Origin: a virus
IMG/VR virus record: IMGVR_UViG_3300006637_000024
Coordinates: 1 to 27,033 of that record
Length of the DNA: 27,033 nt
Strand: one strand, 5' to 3'
Numbering within the stretch: position 1 is the first letter of the stretch; the number at the start of each line of letters is the position of its first letter. Shown here one piece after another: positions 5,512-26,928 of the stretch. Under the pieces are notes generated by a model. It had not been told where the DNA came from. It saw only the letters and a list, made by a program, of their open reading frames with translations, and searched no databases. The position numbers and the translations under genes are program-made.

Positions 5512-7236
5512 ATGGGTTCTGTTCAAATTAAAGGCGATCAGATTATCGATGCAGCGATTGTAGCTGCTAAGATTGCTTCTGATGCTATTACCACTGTAAA
5601 AATACAAGATGCTGCCATTACATCTGGCAAGCTCGGTACATCTGCTGTACTTACTGCAGCTCTTAATGATGGAGCTGTTACTGCTGTAAAGCTGGGTGCT
5701 GCTGCTGTAGAGACTGCCAAGATTGCTGATGATGCTGTCACCAGTGCTAAGATTGGTGCTGGAGCTGTAGATGCTACTGCACTTGGCTCTCTGGCTGTTA
5801 CCACTGCCAAGCTCAATGACTTAGCTGTTACTGCTGCTAAGATTGCCTCTTCTGCTGTAGAGACTGCTAAAATCAATGATTTGGCTGTTACTACTGGTAA
5901 GATTGCTGCTAATGCTGTAGATGCTTCTAAACTTGACCTTACAGACACTTATGACTTTTCATCTGGTGTTCTGCAGGTAGGCACTCCATCCAATGCCAAC
6001 GATGTACCCAATAAGAGCTATGTTGATAATGTAGCTGCTGGATTGTCTGTAAAGGACAATGTAAAAGTAGCCACAGAGAGCAATGTAGACATTACTAATC
6101 TTCCAGCTAACATTGATTCTGTGGCTATGAGTAATGGAGACCGCTTCTTACTCCTTAATCAGTCAGATGCTACAGAAAATGGTGTGTATGTTTACTCTTC
6201 ATCTGGTAGCTCTGCTTCTCGATCTTCGGACATGGATGCTGGCTCAGATTTCCCTGGTGCATTCCTTTTTGTATTGCAAGGTACCTATGCAGAGCAAGGT
6301 TATGTATGCTCTAATGATTCTGTTACATTGGGCTCCACTTCTATCTCATTCCAAAGATTTACTGGTACTGGGCAGATAACCGTATCTGGCGGACTTGCTA
6401 AAGATGGAAATGATTTGTCCATAGCAGACTCTGGAGTGACCACAGCTAAATTAAATGATGCTGCTGTCACCAGTGCCAAGATTGCTGATGCTGCTGTACT
6501 ATCTGCCAAGATTGCAGACAATGCTATTAGTAATGCCAAGATGGCAGACGATTCTGTCGGTGCTAATGAGCTTATAGATGGCTCTGTAGGTACTGCTGCT
6601 CTGGCTGATGCTGCTATCACCAGTGCCAAGCTGTCAGATGATTCTGTAGCTACTGCCAAGATTCAAGACTCAGCCATTACAGCAGCCAAGCTCGGTGCCT
6701 CTGCAGTAGAGACAGCCAAGATTAATGATGCTGCTGTTACTGCTGCTAAGCTGGGTGCTTCTGCTGTAGAGACTGCTAAAATCAATGACTTAGCTGTTAC
6801 CACTGCCAAGATAGCTAATGCTGCTGTAGATGCAGACAAGCTCGCATCTGCATCTGTTACATCTGCTAAAATCTCAGCAGGTGCTGTAGGTACATCTGCT
6901 CTGGCTGCTACATCTGTCACCAGTGCCAAGCTGGCAGACTCTTCTGTTACTGCTGCCAAGCTGGGTATTACTTTTGCACAGGAAGGTGCAGAGATTTCTG
7001 GTGGCTCCACCACTACCATAGACTTGGGTCAGACTCTTCCATCTGGAGCTGTTAACTCTGTACTTGTCTTTAAAAATGGTTTGTCTCTGCGTAACATGAC
7101 TGCATTGGGCGATACTGCTGGAGATAATGATGAGTTCCAAGTTTCTGCCAATGGTGGAGCTGCTGGTGTGGCTCGTCTTACATTCGGTGCAGCTCTCTCT
7201 GATGGAGATGGCATTATGATTTGGTACTGGTACTAA
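5512..7236 (+). CDS. Repetitive phage fiber with decapeptide repeats
   Basis: This is a fibrous virion protein of 574 residues. Residues 15-144 contain thirteen consecutive ten-residue repeats of the type AVTTAKIADD. A globular domain of about 160 residues follows (NVDITNLPANIDSVAMSNGDRFLLLNQ split over two strands, then NGVYVYSSSG), of a type common in tail fibers. A second array of about eighteen decapeptides spans roughly 309-486, and an 88-residue beta tip (VLVFKNGLSL ... GIMIWYWY) ends the chain. Such repeats typically form trimeric beta-helical shafts. The gene is richer in GCT and GTT codons than its neighbours. Its place between the scaffold and capsid genes, not with the tail genes, suggests a head fiber as well as a tail fiber. 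A terminator follows. Confidence 0.85.
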   Translation: MGSVQIKGDQIIDAAIVAAKIASDAITTVKIQDAAITSGKLGTSAVLTAALNDGAVTAVKLGAAAVETAKIADDAVTSAKIGAGAVDATALGSLAVTTAKLNDLAVTAAKIASSAVETAKINDLAVTTGKIAANAVDASKLDLTDTYDFSSGVLQVGTPSNANDVPNKSYVDNVAAGLSVKDNVKVATESNVDITNLPANIDSVAMSNGDRFLLLNQSDATENGVYVYSSSGSSASRSSDMDAGSDFPGAFLFVLQGTYAEQGYVCSNDSVTLGSTSISFQRFTGTGQITVSGGLAKDGNDLSIADSGVTTAKLNDAAVTSAKIADAAVLSAKIADNAISNAKMADDSVGANELIDGSVGTAALADAAITSAKLSDDSVATAKIQDSAITAAKLGASAVETAKINDAAVTAAKLGASAVETAKINDLAVTTAKIANAAVDADKLASASVTSAKISAGAVGTSALAATSVTSAKLADSSVTAAKLGITFAQEGAEISGGSTTTIDLGQTLPSGAVNSVLVFKNGLSLRNMTALGDTAGDNDEFQVSANGGAAGVARLTFGAALSDGDGIMIWYWY

Positions 7237-22403: not shown

Positions 22404-22744
22404 GGAGATCTTTTGATAAAAATATCCTTCCTCAGGAGCCTCCCCCCTCTCAGTCACGATCCCCAAAAAAGGAGAAGATCCCCGACCCCCTTCGATGTCC
22501 TGAGCTCGGGATATTACTGACAAAATATAGGACTCAGGTCGGAGACAGATTCTCACTTCCTGAGCTGGCTCGGCTCTGCGGAGTAAAGCTCAATACTGCT
22601 AAAAAATGGTTTTATGGATATATCCCCTCTCATCTCGTCTATTGGATAATCGCTCGCTATTTTGAGAGACATCTCGACATAAAAGCAGACCTCATAAAAG
22701 AGGAGATCGACACCACAATCACAGCATGGAGGGAGAGCAAATGA
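22400..22744 (+). CDS. Second HTH DNA-binding protein
   Basis: The 114-residue protein has a basic, proline-rich start (QEPPPSQSRSPKKEKIPDP) followed by a helical DNA-binding domain: LGILLTKYRTQVGDRFSLPE, LARLCGVKLNTAKKWFYGYI (a helix-turn-helix in which NTAKKWFYG is the recognition helix) and VYWIIARYFERHL. It is coupled through ATGA overlaps to the regulator before it and the methyltransferase after it. It could be a second transcription factor or a replication/recombination accessory. The fold is visible; the target is unknown. Confidence 0.72.
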   Translation: MRRSFDKNILPQEPPPSQSRSPKKEKIPDPLRCPELGILLTKYRTQVGDRFSLPELARLCGVKLNTAKKWFYGYIPSHLVYWIIARYFERHLDIKADLIKEEIDTTITAWRESK

Positions 22745-23868
22745 TAAAAATCGGCTCCCTTTTTGCAGGGATAGGGGGATTTGAGCTCGGATTAGAGAGA
22801 GCCATCCCCAATAGCGAGACCATCTGGCAGGTCGAACAAGATAAATTCTGTCAGAGGGTACTCCGGAAACATTGGCCACAATCAAAAATATATAACGACG
22901 TCAGGGAGGTCTCCTCTCATAATTTGGAGCCTGTCGATCTACTCTGCGGAGGATTCCCCTGTCAGGACATATCAATCGCAGGAAAAGGAGAGGGATTACA
23001 TGGGAAAAAATCGGGTCTTTGGTGGGAAATGCACAGAATTATCAGGGATATACGACCTCGAGTTATCGTGCTGGAAAACGTCTCAGCTGTCACTTTTCGA
23101 GGGGGATTATCAGTTATTGGATCGCTTACCGAACTCGGGTATAGCTGCGAATGGGGAATTATATCCGCTCGTCAATTCGGAGCCCCTCATCTCAGAAAGA
23201 GATGGTTCTGTGTTGCCTACTCCGAGGACATCTCAGGACTACAAAAAGATCAGGAGACTCTCTCCGAGCGAGAGGGATGGGCGACATGGTGCGACATTAG
23301 TCGGAGCCATCGGGGAGATGATGCTCCCCACTCCGACAGCGATGGGAGACATAAACAGCCCCGAGAGGACAGAGAGAGCGATCTCATTAGCAAAACAGAA
23401 CAAGCCCCTCTACACTCGAAGGATAGTAAACGGGAAAAAGATCCCAGACAAGCGCACATTTGGGATAAAGGATGCGATCCTTTACAATATGATGCTCCCC
23501 ACTCCGACAGCAGAGGATGCCGCTCATACTCCGACAGCTCCGACAATCCAAAAATACAACGGAGGGAGATCTCTAAACGCATTTGTAGGGAGGATGCTCC
23601 CGACTCCGACGGTCGACACATCAAAAAACAATTTCTCGCCCAGCCAATTAAAGAGAGACAACAATCTTCCCAAAACAATATCGGATCTGTGTCAATCTCA
23701 GGGTTCGGCTATTGGGAAAGATGCCCGGCTCCGTCCCCAATTTGTCGAGTGGATGATGGGATTCCCCATCGGGTGGCTAAACTTAGAGCTTTAGGGAATG
23801 CAATTGTCCCTCAATGCTCTGAGCATATAGGGAGATTGATACATGAGTCAGGAGTCCTCTATGGGTAA
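22741..23868 (+). CDS. DNA (cytosine-5) methyltransferase
   Basis: This enzyme adds a methyl group to cytosine C5 in DNA, probably to protect phage DNA from host restriction. The start at 22741 forms an ATGA overlap and places motif I at the N-terminus: IGSLFAGIGGFELGLERA (4-21). Motif IV is GGFPCQDIS with catalytic C74, motif VI is LENV (111-114), motif VIII is ARQFGAPHLRKRWF (143-156), and motif X is RALGNAIVPQ (349-358). Between VIII and X, the target-recognition part is unusual: it is hydrophilic and low in complexity, with repeated DAPHSDS/DAPDSD segments. A different protein is encoded in the +1 frame across residues 87-351. No restriction endonuclease partner is seen. Confidence 0.95.
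   Translation: MIKIGSLFAGIGGFELGLERAIPNSETIWQVEQDKFCQRVLRKHWPQSKIYNDVREVSSHNLEPVDLLCGGFPCQDISIAGKGEGLHGKKSGLWWEMHRIIRDIRPRVIVLENVSAVTFRGGLSVIGSLTELGYSCEWGIISARQFGAPHLRKRWFCVAYSEDISGLQKDQETLSEREGWATWCDISRSHRGDDAPHSDSDGRHKQPREDRESDLISKTEQAPLHSKDSKREKDPRQAHIWDKGCDPLQYDAPHSDSRGCRSYSDSSDNPKIQRREISKRICREDAPDSDGRHIKKQFLAQPIKERQQSSQNNIGSVSISGFGYWERCPAPSPICRVDDGIPHRVAKLRALGNAIVPQCSEHIGRLIHESGVLYG
23000..23794 (+). CDS. Nested +1-frame protein inside the methyltransferase gene
   Basis: A 264-residue frame lies entirely inside the methyltransferase gene, offset by +1. It has its own AGGAG site (22986-22990) nine bases before the ATG. The product looks like a recognisable phage family: CWKTSQLSLFEGDYQLLDRL, then PNSGIAANGELYPL, then four LPTP repeats (VLPTPRTSQDY, MLPTPTAMGD, MLPTPTAEDA, MLPTPTVDTS) and an ending RLRPQFVEWMMGFPIGWLNL. 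From memory, stand-alone phage proteins share the WKTSQ, SGM-x-x-NG, LPTP and FVEWMMGFP-x-GW elements; their function is unknown and no search was run. The LPTP repeats are the same bases that give DAPHSDS in the methyltransferase. Dual coding is strongly suggested but needs a conservation test. Confidence 0.72.
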   Translation: MGKNRVFGGKCTELSGIYDLELSCWKTSQLSLFEGDYQLLDRLPNSGIAANGELYPLVNSEPLISERDGSVLPTPRTSQDYKKIRRLSPSERDGRHGATLVGAIGEMMLPTPTAMGDINSPERTERAISLAKQNKPLYTRRIVNGKKIPDKRTFGIKDAILYNMMLPTPTAEDAAHTPTAPTIQKYNGGRSLNAFVGRMLPTPTVDTSKNNFSPSQLKRDNNLPKTISDLCQSQGSAIGKDARLRPQFVEWMMGFPIGWLNLEL

Positions 23869-24595: not shown

Positions 24596-25567
24596 ATGTT
24601 TAATATAACATTATTACCCAAAATATATCAACCTGAGCGATTTGAGACACACAAATTATCATTTACTCAGGTCTATGATATTGTCACTCAGGAGAGACCC
24701 CTATTACCCAAAAAACAGCAAGTTTGCTGGAGCCCCTGCATATTTAAAAAGGGGACTAAAAAGGGGAATGAAAACGCAATTGAGCTCTCTCTGATGGTTC
24801 TCGATATCGATGATTACTATCGATTTGATGAGGTACACGACATTCTAGTATTTTTAAAATTGTCGTTTTTTATACACACATCCTACTCTCACGACGAGAA
24901 AGTAAAAGATAAATTCAGAGTCGTGTTTCCTATGAGAGATCCTGTCCCTGCGGAGCTGTGGCGTTTTTATTTTGATGGGATGATGGACTGGTTTAGGGAG
25001 CATGTCACCATCCCGATCGTCTCTAAATATGGCACTCTGCAGGGGAAAGATCTCAAATGGCTTAAACTCGATACCTCAGTAAACGACCCCGGGCGAGCCT
25101 ACTATACGATGACACACAAGCCCCTCTCTCGTCGAGTATTGTACGAGTCAGGAGAGATAGTCGATTGGGAGATGTACGCAGATCGAGCCCGCTACGCATA
25201 CGAAGCGAAATTGGACGAGAAACGCAGACTCGCAGAGGAGGAGAGGGAGCGCAGAGAGGCACATCTCAAAAATCTCGAGGGACGCAGAGTCTCACACTCT
25301 GACAGACGCAAATATTATTATCATATGCTCAGTACACAGATGAGCTGGAGACAGAGACTCGCAGATAGACTCGGATGTGAGATCCGGATGTCCTCAGGAG
25401 GAGATCGAGCTCAGGGATTCTCCTGTCCCTCCTGTCAGAGGACGGATTGTAGTTATTTCTATATCGACCCCATCCGCAATAGCCATCTCGCTCGATGTGG
25501 ACATCTCAAATCCTGCGGATGGTCGGCATCTGTCGGATACCTCGCAGAAATAAACAATTTTATATAG
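24596..25567 (+). CDS. Primase-polymerase-like protein with C-terminal zinc ribbon
   Basis: This 323-residue protein is a probable replication primase. It shows the archaeo-eukaryotic primase motifs: LMVLDID (D70, D72), HTSYSH (94-99) and WLKLDTS (D159), followed by a P-G-R-A-Y-Y stretch (165-170) like plasmid and phage prim-pols. A charged coiled coil (residues 200-230) links to a C-terminal cysteine cluster with C277, C280, C285, C301, H303 and C307 (CPSCQRTDC ... ARCGHLKSCGW), probably a zinc ribbon for DNA binding. The gene directly precedes the VirE-like helicase, a common primase plus helicase pair. An AAGGAG site lies 13 bases upstream, rather far. Confidence 0.78.
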   Translation: MFNITLLPKIYQPERFETHKLSFTQVYDIVTQERPLLPKKQQVCWSPCIFKKGTKKGNENAIELSLMVLDIDDYYRFDEVHDILVFLKLSFFIHTSYSHDEKVKDKFRVVFPMRDPVPAELWRFYFDGMMDWFREHVTIPIVSKYGTLQGKDLKWLKLDTSVNDPGRAYYTMTHKPLSRRVLYESGEIVDWEMYADRARYAYEAKLDEKRRLAEEERERREAHLKNLEGRRVSHSDRRKYYYHMLSTQMSWRQRLADRLGCEIRMSSGGDRAQGFSCPSCQRTDCSYFYIDPIRNSHLARCGHLKSCGWSASVGYLAEINNFI

Positions 25568-25575
25568 GAGACGAC

Positions 25576-26928
25576 ATGACTAGACCAAACATTACAGAGA
25601 TACACAGCACAGATGGACGGATACAAGCCCTTCTCAATCTCGGATTCGAGCTCAGAGTCAGACGCACAGATAACGGAGACTATATCAAACCCTCCCTGTT
25701 TAATATTGTCCAATTACTCCGCAATCATCCCCTCCTCAGAGGGAGACTCACTCAGGATGGCTTCTCAAACATCATATTTTGGAAAGACGAGAATGAAAAG
25801 GAGGTCAGATTCTCCGATAAATCTCATGTCCCTGAGCTGCGCTTTTTGTGTGAGGATCGATGGGGAGTATCATTTAAAAAAGAGGAGGTCCTCTCTGCAG
25901 TCCAGATCGTCTCGTCGGAGAATATTATCAATCCTCTACACGACCATCTCGACTCCCTGAGAGGTCTCTGGAATCCTGAGCGAGACAAACCTGAGGCATA
26001 CAAACTATTACACTATCTCGGATCTCCTGACTCTGCTAAGAAGGGAGAGCCGGGCTATATGGCTCGAGTCTACTCTCACAGATGGCTCCTGTCTGTTATC
26101 GCTCGTGCGTATGCGACCCTCGACAATCTCGTAAAAGCGGATCCCTGCCTCCTATTGTACGGACATCAGAGGATAGGTAAATCACGAGCCCTCGAGACTA
26201 TCTGTTTTTATGATGCGCTCGGACGTCGATATTTTGGAGACAATGAACTCGACATGTCAGACTATCCGGATGCCGTTATGCAGATCAGAGGCAAGCTCAT
26301 CTATGAATTACAAGAGATGGCAGGCAGACCAAAGGACGCAAAGATCGAGAAGCGATTTTTATCTATACAGAAGGATGATTGTCGGTTTGTATATGGGAAA
26401 TTTAATGAGGAGGTCCCGAGACGGACTGTATTTGCATACACGACCAATAAAAAAAACGTCCTGACAGATGCCTCAGGGAACTCTCGTCTATGGTGTGTCG
26501 ATCTCGGCAGTAAAAAAATAGACATCCCCCGGCTCAGGGATAGGATGCCTTATATTTGGTCAGAGATCCTCTATAGATATGATGAGTATATGAGAGATCC
26601 CAAAAATCCCAAAAAAGCGCACCTCGGCCAATGGTGGCTCACGAATGAGGAGGAGATTGAGCATATAGGGGAGAGCTCGGCATTTGAGCAAACCCATCCT
26701 ATGACAGAGAGGGTTGAGGAGATTATCGCAGAGACAGAAGATCTCCCCATCTCAGTCGCTCAGATCCTGAGACAATTGAGAGAGGAGCTCTCCCCCTTCC
26801 TCGAGTCAGGAGTCCGAGCGAATAGTCAGATAATCTCCGATATACTACAACGTAATCGATACGAGTATGACAGACGGAGACCTCCTGAGGGAGGAGACAG
26901 AGTCCGAGGATGGTGGCCTCCCTCATAG
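25576..26928 (+). CDS. VirE-like replicative helicase/ATPase
   Basis: The frame is open from 25495, but the ATG at 25576 has a TAGGAG site five bases upstream and removes overlap with the primase gene, so the product is 450 residues. The ATPase core has Walker A GHQRIGKS (196-203), a Walker B-like KLIYELQEM (240-248), FAYTTNK (286-292, sensor Asn) and GNSRLW (301-306, arginine). This is the pattern of the virulence-associated E family, superfamily 3-like helicases that partner with prim-pols. The N-terminal 130 residues resemble the usual substrate-binding region; the C-terminal 110 are helical and acidic. It probably unwinds DNA during phage replication. A terminator follows. Confidence 0.87.
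   Translation: MTRPNITEIHSTDGRIQALLNLGFELRVRRTDNGDYIKPSLFNIVQLLRNHPLLRGRLTQDGFSNIIFWKDENEKEVRFSDKSHVPELRFLCEDRWGVSFKKEEVLSAVQIVSSENIINPLHDHLDSLRGLWNPERDKPEAYKLLHYLGSPDSAKKGEPGYMARVYSHRWLLSVIARAYATLDNLVKADPCLLLYGHQRIGKSRALETICFYDALGRRYFGDNELDMSDYPDAVMQIRGKLIYELQEMAGRPKDAKIEKRFLSIQKDDCRFVYGKFNEEVPRRTVFAYTTNKKNVLTDASGNSRLWCVDLGSKKIDIPRLRDRMPYIWSEILYRYDEYMRDPKNPKKAHLGQWWLTNEEEIEHIGESSAFEQTHPMTERVEEIIAETEDLPISVAQILRQLREELSPFLESGVRANSQIISDILQRNRYEYDRRRPPEGGDRVRGWWPPS

Follow-up and report, generated by a model that had tools for sequence, protein, structure and literature searches.

The 27,033-nucleotide stretch of viral DNA analysed here (IMG/VR record IMGVR_UViG_3300006637_000024, positions 1 to 27,033, hereafter the window) contains a locus that quite probably encodes both subunits of a naturally split C5-cytosine methyltransferase (MTase) in two reading frames of the same DNA. 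Frame 0 would provide the catalytic subunit, with SAM binding and catalysis (motifs I-VIII) plus motif X, and with a low-complexity linker in place of the target-recognition region. The +1 frame would provide the second subunit, translated from its own ribosome-binding site and ATG within the first gene and composed of a conserved N-terminal half (N-half), LPTP units that vary in number, and motif IX (LxPQFVEWMMGFPxGW). On a model taken from M.EcoHK31I (motif IX) and M.AquI (IX with X), the second subunit would assemble with the catalytic one, most likely by docking on it, supply motif IX in trans and take part in methylation; it probably also gives a variable recognition or DNA-reading surface in trans. 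Both frames are under selection, motif IX lies in +1 and not in cis, and relatives carry the same module in cis.

The MTase occupies 22741..23868 of the plus strand (375 aa, starting with the ATG at 22741). It matches PF00145 (5e-48, residues 3-221), TIGR00675 (4e-41) and PHROG 363 (9e-72), and the catalytic core with motifs I-VIII is present, GGFPCQDIS and ENV being legible in frame 0. Wholly inside this gene and on the same strand lies a PHROG 1008-like, motif IX-bearing ORF of 264 aa (23000..23794, ATG at 23000, stop at 23792-23794) that overlies MTase codons 87-351 and is preceded, 9 nt upstream of its ATG, by an AGGAG that reads as a Shine-Dalgarno-like site (22986..22990, plus strand). 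An ATG stands at the aligned nested start or one codon earlier in 30 of 48 cluster representatives. A first-pass annotation made from the letters had reported a 264-codon +1 frame with AGGAG inside MTase codons 87-351, and its coordinates are exact; the motif overlays that it listed (MTase LENVSAVTF with nested WKTSQLSLF, each DAPxSDx with an LPTPTx, and DDGIPHRV with MMGFPIGW) are likewise present. An identical copy of both frames (100% identity; the IMG/VR copy is labelled L004) is found in IMG/VR contig IMGVR_UViG_3300025630_000043.

All parts of the two proteins lie on the plus strand. The conserved N-half of the nested protein (VFGGKC...WKTSQLSLF...LPNSGIAANGELYPL, 23015..23170), delineated by an N-half HMM scored against synonymous permutations, sits above MTase motifs VI-VIII, and the motif VIII region of the enzyme, GAPHLRKRWFCVAY (23179..23220), is placed by sequence and by alignment to HhaI. 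There follow four repeat blocks in the nested frame, namely LPTPRT (23213..23230), LPTPTA over MTase APHSDS (23324..23341), a second LPTPTA over APHSDS (23495..23512) and LPTPTV over APDSDG (23597..23614), recognised from sequence and from the free third positions of LxTPT words across loci. The putative motif IX, FVEWMMGFPIGW, overlies MTase CRVDDGIPHRVA at 23741..23776, and motif X of the enzyme (LRALGNAIVPQ, 23782..23814) is kept in cis in frame 0, within a C-terminal region whose helix 355-370 is modelled confidently. The other window genes have phage-family matches, among them terminase, tape measure, endolysin, RusA, helicase and primase. Two further features of the window may be recorded here: a repeat-rich AVTTAKL-type protein with a tail fibre family match at 5512-7236, which has long antisense open frames above it, and primase-like and helicase-like ORFs at 24596-26928 that share 73 nt in different frames.

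The enzyme frame is incomplete by comparison with a one-chain MTase. Its match to HhaI covers residues 6-165 alone, and its match to class A MTases, which are described below, spans motifs I-VIII in the one alignment reported. The AlphaFold2 model is confident at residues 1-165 and in the C-terminal helix, with about 179-351 mostly below pLDDT 50, and its superposition on HhaI aligns 194 of 327 HhaI residues (Z 23.6, rmsd 2.3). Sequence, HhaI match and model thus reveal neither a recognisable motif IX nor a confidently modelled recognition domain in the window's MTase chain, and motif X, as noted above, is present.

The nested protein matches PHROG 1008 ('DNA methyltransferase') at 1.4e-20 in a profile search; Pfam and NCBIfam give it no name, a profile search against solved structures returned two chance-level matches alone (E 1.4 and 1.9), and AlphaFold2 applied to the protein by itself gave a pLDDT of 54.8 and a pTM of 0.21, with no fold match. 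Its C-terminus (RPQFVEWMMGFPIGW) is taken as motif IX of C5-methyltransferases, since the corresponding motif of class A enzymes aligns both with the nested profile (hhalign, 98.2% probability, E 3.5e-14) and with HhaI residues 270-307 (RKLHPRECARVMGYPDSY...FGNSVV); the latter alignment, made with class A member L074, scores 2 bits for the stretch alone and is colinear with a strong match. By the same sequence comparisons the nested protein is homologous to a C-terminal module that other MTases carry in frame. The first-pass annotation had spoken of a second protein family nested in the enzyme, and this holds insofar as the protein has a gene of its own, but it is not an unrelated family, ending as it seems to in motif IX and resembling the in-frame module of other MTases. 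The statement that LPTP proteins ending in FVEWMMGFP-x-GW are common in phages is borne out by PHROG 1008 and by tblastn, where five queries found matches in 8, 64, 115, 337 and 52 phage records; on plasmids matches were few, in 3 and 8 records.

The nested +1 ORF is a real second coding frame under dual protein-level selection, and codon resampling and substitution positions both reveal independent purifying selection on the two frames. In L004 the +1 frame is open for 332 codons; when the codons of this gene were permuted synonymously 2000 times, the open run averaged 129 codons and never exceeded 263. With L002, L069 and L074 left out of 52 clusters for this open-run test (and L001 also for resampling and start-codon counts), the run reached P<0.05 in 45 of 49 cluster representatives, 20 of which had no equally long run among 2000 permutations. 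The four that miss are L092 and the GC-rich L001, L021 and L063, in which long open frames are to be expected. Two-way resampling, in which one protein was held fixed, the codons were shuffled and the other frame was scored for each locus pair, placed the nested frame above all 60 nulls in 47/47 pairs with the window's copy and in 110/110 random pairs, and the MTase frame likewise (47/47 and 110/110), with the qualification that permutation also erases shared ancestry, so that close pairs are inflated. As a frame control, +1 scored above every one of 40 nulls in 119 of 120 pairs, with a median z of 9.9; +2 did so in 42, and the three antisense frames in 81, 16 and 84, with median z of 0.6-4.7 over these four, an excess that we read as spill-over because the same bases are held by two frames. 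In the non-overlapping N-terminal part of the MTase the +1 frame is at chance (7 of 57 above all nulls, median z 0.08). A spurious ORF is ruled out by codon permutation together with two-way resampling.

The positions of the substitutions tell the same story. Other nested proteins are 26-51% identical to that of the window in our alignment (A1), and within their LxTPT words the codon third positions vary freely, with differing MTase words above them (VAYSN, APHSD, ATNTN and others); third positions of VEWMMGFPxxW codons are also free where the code permits. Since third positions vary, a DNA-level repeat is ruled out. Substitutions at MTase third positions, any of which changes the nested protein where the two frames overlap, make up 67% of the total in the non-overlapping part versus 33% in the overlap, where 54% fall at MTase first positions, which are the nested third positions (3142, 795 and 1907 substitutions at positions 1, 2 and 3 in 37416 codons; 291 pairs from 42 loci, many from one cluster). 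When one pair is taken per cluster, L047/L076 being left out as contigs cut at the gene, the third-position share is down in the overlap in all 12 usable clusters of 13. The overlap is more variable overall than the non-overlapping part in this comparison, and the absolute MTase third-position rate is lower there in 7 clusters, equal in 1 and higher in 4; being lower in just 7 of 12, these positions are not frozen. The earlier proposal that the low-complexity region is constrained by the second gene is thus upheld by resampling, by the free LxTPT third positions and by the third-position share. Its companion, that changes synonymous for the MTase should not freely alter the nested protein, fares well on relative share (12/12 clusters) and less well on absolute rate, given the five clusters in which that rate is equal or higher. 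Apparent stops inside the nested frames of L200 and L202 were found to lie beyond the nested-frame end.

Among the first 102 loci, 96 were matched by both proteins on one strand, the nested match lying in +1 in 94 and in the MTase frame in 2. Because loci fetched with the nested protein are biased, a separate sample was fetched, consisting of the best 80 of 582 relatives, chosen with the patterns CGG[FY]PCQ (motif IV) and [DS]LFSGIGG (motif I), both of which precede the nested start. The sample comprises phage MTases and is weighted to the clade from which its query was drawn; three loci are truncated, leaving 77. In 69 of these 77 the N-half exceeds all 100 permutations, and the canonical motif IX pattern occurs in the enzyme frame of none (0/77). 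A residue pattern for the nested-type motif IX placed it in +1 in 49/77 loci and in neither frame in 28; with a profile built from nested sequences and a 5-bit cut, the best match fell in +1 at 75 of 76 assessable loci and in the enzyme frame at none, the exception being L289 with too weak a score. L310, whose frame could not be set, is outside this last count and is counted as a miss among the 77. For the best 80 of 582 relatives, then, a nested-type motif IX occurs where no canonical one was found in cis. In a further set of 26 loci, fetched with the window's MTase, the nested ORF is seen in 20; L097 is cut off, L098 ends early, and L099-L102 have a canonical motif IX in the enzyme frame.

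Ordinary MTases behave differently. For the best-scoring 30 from Bacillota, 29 of which were scored (L248 has no catalytic-domain match), the longest +1 runs are 29-165 codons, the N-half null is exceeded in 0/29, and the nested-type motif IX profile finds no match in any frame. The canonical motif IX pattern is present in 17/29 of the same set; as the nested-type profile is blind to a canonical motif IX, the statement that the clade is without one in cis depends on this pattern, with its 17/29 sensitivity, and on the structural model. Of 66 clade loci, 53 (among them most of class A) have an N-half score above all 100 permutations, as against 0 of 5 canonical loci; of the other 13 clade loci, L140, L148 and L152 have the N-half in another frame. 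Homologous MTases were expected on the first reading to carry routine +1 stops if the nested gene were illusory. Within the clade the frame is open far beyond chance, and stops occur in ordinary MTases.

The window's locus and its relatives fall into five layouts. In that of the window (B), motifs I-VIII and X are in frame 0 and the N-half, LPTP units and motif IX in +1; an E. coli (L218) and a Pseudomonas phage (L215) locus of this kind have a +1 frame that is already open where the MTase begins. In the actinophages Lilbooboo, Samy, Float294, Jarcob, Jamun, Ovechkin and Ryadel (S), ORF1 ends past motif VIII and an overlapping ORF2 in +1 carries the N-half, whole or in part, the LPTP units and motifs IX and X; Jarcob is an exception in that ORF1 ends before motif VIII, which is in ORF2. 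The module copy of phage Samy is annotated 'DNA methyltransferase domain protein' (phrog_1008). Class A loci (A), mainly actinobacterial (L069, L074, L103, L113, L119, L121 and others), have motifs IX and X, and sometimes LPTP units, in the MTase frame, with LxPxFVEWMMGxPxGW directly before motif X, and the N-half still in +1. At three loci from the Bombiscardovia family (F) the MTase frame continues past motif VIII into an N-half and LPTP units: in Bombiscardovia coagulans the entire protein is a single frame of 690 codons, in a second genome the N-half scores 12.5 bits in the MTase frame, with weaker +1 matches too, and a stop follows, and in a third, where the frame shifts before motif IX, alignment with the first genome (39% identity, E 3e-19) reveals the N-half. 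Canonical MTases without a nested frame make up the last layout (C). Four loci (L140, L148, L170 and L179) in which an indel-like frame change fuses the N-terminal part of the MTase with the nested frame or disrupts both frames look like indel frameshifts and were excluded as natural fusions.

Several individual loci deserve mention. In a human-gut phage (L002:572-2650) the MTase is broken directly after GGFPC, at the catalytic cysteine, by an intein-like segment that begins CFDGDTLVLTSKGLKPIREI and ends VVHN ahead of CQPFSVAG; a stop also splits the frame in this record. Gordonia phage Hans (L163:1040-3226) has a LAGLIDADG endonuclease (annotated 1533-1988) in +1 within a long open MTase frame, so that a homing endonuclease also overlaps the MTase there. 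In L201, on the reverse strand with the MTase beginning near position 801 of the reversed locus, two consecutive MTase stops follow directly on PCQ and the nested frame is open. What is annotated in Pseudomonas phage VB_PaD_phPA-G (L215:1785-2513) as a hypothetical protein is the nested frame (MSWLYS...WRTHRCLFEE...FEEWMMGWPTGW); an open MTase frame runs alongside it and is unannotated. An Acinetobacter plasmid MTase (L213, 2308-3033) and two E. coli chromosomal copies that adjoin phage genes (L217, whose MTase is flagged with an internal stop, and L218) share 79-83% DNA identity at their ends around a middle that cannot be aligned, a pattern compatible with swapping of a recognition part.

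In a tree of 116 catalytic domains one branch (SH-aLRT 98) separates the 22 canonical rows from all 94 nested-bearing rows. Twelve changes of layout are required on this quick tree, in which 41 of 113 inner branches are open, and gain and loss of a layout cannot be told apart because the root was not inferred. Within the order that contains Bombiscardovia, 18 of 297 genomes are matched by the nested profile, and within the phylum that contains Croceifilum 4 of 299, each count taking in the centre genome. Record titles of the 50 genome loci name, among others, Streptomyces and other actinobacteria, Croceifilum, Bacteroidetes, Bdellovibrionales, Planctomycetota, Omnitrophota, Parcubacteria, Desulfocapsaceae and Methyloceanibacter. 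We lean, by a narrow balance of probability, towards a wider reading in which this is among the oldest and most widespread same-strand overlapping gene pairs in bacteria and phages, with a single origin at the base of a large clade of C5-MTases, the +1 product being a detachable specificity subunit and the module having since switched several times among nested +1 frame, separate overlapping gene and cis fusion. Repeated switching of this kind would mean that the same DNA serves as motif IX in one frame and as a different conserved enzyme motif in the other.

That the two proteins may work together had been suggested at the outset, and joint working is indeed likely because the nested end corresponds to motif IX and the window's MTase is without it; the complementarity of motif IX carries the suggestion this far, as an inference. 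Several points weigh against our account, among them the poor model of the nested protein, the 13 clade loci that do not exceed the N-half null and the limited sensitivity of the canonical motif IX pattern. For M.EcoHK31I, moreover, PMC3404938 assigns the predicted recognition domain to the large subunit and not to the small one. Furthermore, the N-half remains selected in +1 in class A loci though motif IX is there fused to the enzyme, and it must therefore do more than carry motif IX. The persistence of the N-half, in loci where IX and X are both in the enzyme, is equally what would be expected if the nested protein were real but had a separate job, as an MTase regulator, an anti-restriction protein or a DNA-binding protein, and were no subunit at all, and the want of a fold match suits this too. 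We nevertheless hold a separate job to be unlikely, given that the nested C-terminus corresponds to motif IX, that a canonical cis motif IX was not found where the nested one is present, and that three loci carry N-half and LPTP units in cis.

Somewhat less probable still is that the +1 frame is expressed mainly by programmed frameshifting, which would join MTase motifs I-VIII to the LPTP units and motif IX with no separate protein made. The split forms of actinophages do resemble two joinable ORFs, and class A proteins display that very order in one chain, but the +1 frame is conserved for ~70 codons ahead of the junction, over motifs VI-VIII, the ATG position is conserved in 30/48 representatives, and a fusion in the window would be without the motif X that frame 0 keeps. 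That the +1 frame is no gene but arises incidentally from MTase coding or from a repeat at the DNA level is disfavoured and seems to us very improbable indeed. Permuted MTase sequences do already yield some N-half score, and the +2 and antisense frames partly exceed their null (in 16 to 84 of 120 pairs), as expected if the bases are doubly held; yet residues of LxTPT and VEWMMG are kept with free third positions, the +1 median z is about 10 against 0.6-4.7 in the other frames, and ordinary MTases have none of these features.

If the locus does encode a split MTase in two frames, many of the phage and plasmid genes annotated as 'DNA cytosine methyltransferase' probably specify an enzyme of two subunits, the second of which is unannotated. 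In at least one phage (L215) gene calling retained the nested frame and discarded the enzyme. On the split-enzyme reading, a protein expressed from the annotated frame alone would be dead or nonspecific, and the recognition part would be overlooked when motifs are assigned. The family would also form a natural series of nested, split and fused versions in which to follow the movement of a protein module between reading frames, and a compact source of split MTases for targeted methylation.

The relation to known systems is closest for two split enzymes. The small subunit of M.EcoHK31I is reportedly read from an alternative frame inside the large gene. According to PMC3404938, motifs I-VIII and X and the predicted recognition domain of this enzyme (YGGCCR) are on the large subunit and motif IX alone on the small one, and PMC3439449 terms it 'naturally split'. 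The window resembles it in having I-VIII and X on the large polypeptide and, by sequence, a putative motif IX on the second, a likeness of published motif distribution; it differs in that no recognition domain is confidently modelled in its large subunit, and in belonging to a broad phage and bacterial family whereas M.EcoHK31I is a single enzyme. M.AquI (CYCGRG, alpha/beta split), as described in PMC3404938, has the distal part of the variable region and motifs IX-X on its small subunit. The window shares with it a second polypeptide that carries motif IX, but has motif X on the large subunit and its second gene wholly inside the first, in +1; the seven actinophage loci (L157-L162 and L167), with both IX and X in ORF2, are the closest to M.AquI and have its arrangement. 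With M.HhaI the window's MTase shares the catalytic fold and motifs I-VIII and X, although M.HhaI is one chain with a recognition domain and motif IX of its own.

Among annotated proteins, PHROG 1008 is matched by the window's nested protein, by Paenibacillus phage Lily gp63, by Samy gp50 and by class A MTases, and its label gives no hint that MTase genes encode many of its members in their +1 frame. In Lily (KP296792) gp63 is this family's nested ORF, annotated as 'g62 internal gene', a hypothetical protein, and a table in PMC6070908, in a column read as Lily from its gene numbers, lists gp62 and gp63 each as DNA-cytosine methyltransferase; these are annotations, and the passages on the pair give neither its function nor its generality. 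In Tadhana, gp54 and gp55 each carry the annotation DNA methyltransferase. A search of the open-licence literature found no account of this family as one with overlapping MTase genes or dual coding, of its breadth or of frame switching. Split C5-MTases are already known as a kind, and what is new is the breadth of this family, its place on a single branch of the tree and the way in which motif IX switches frames.
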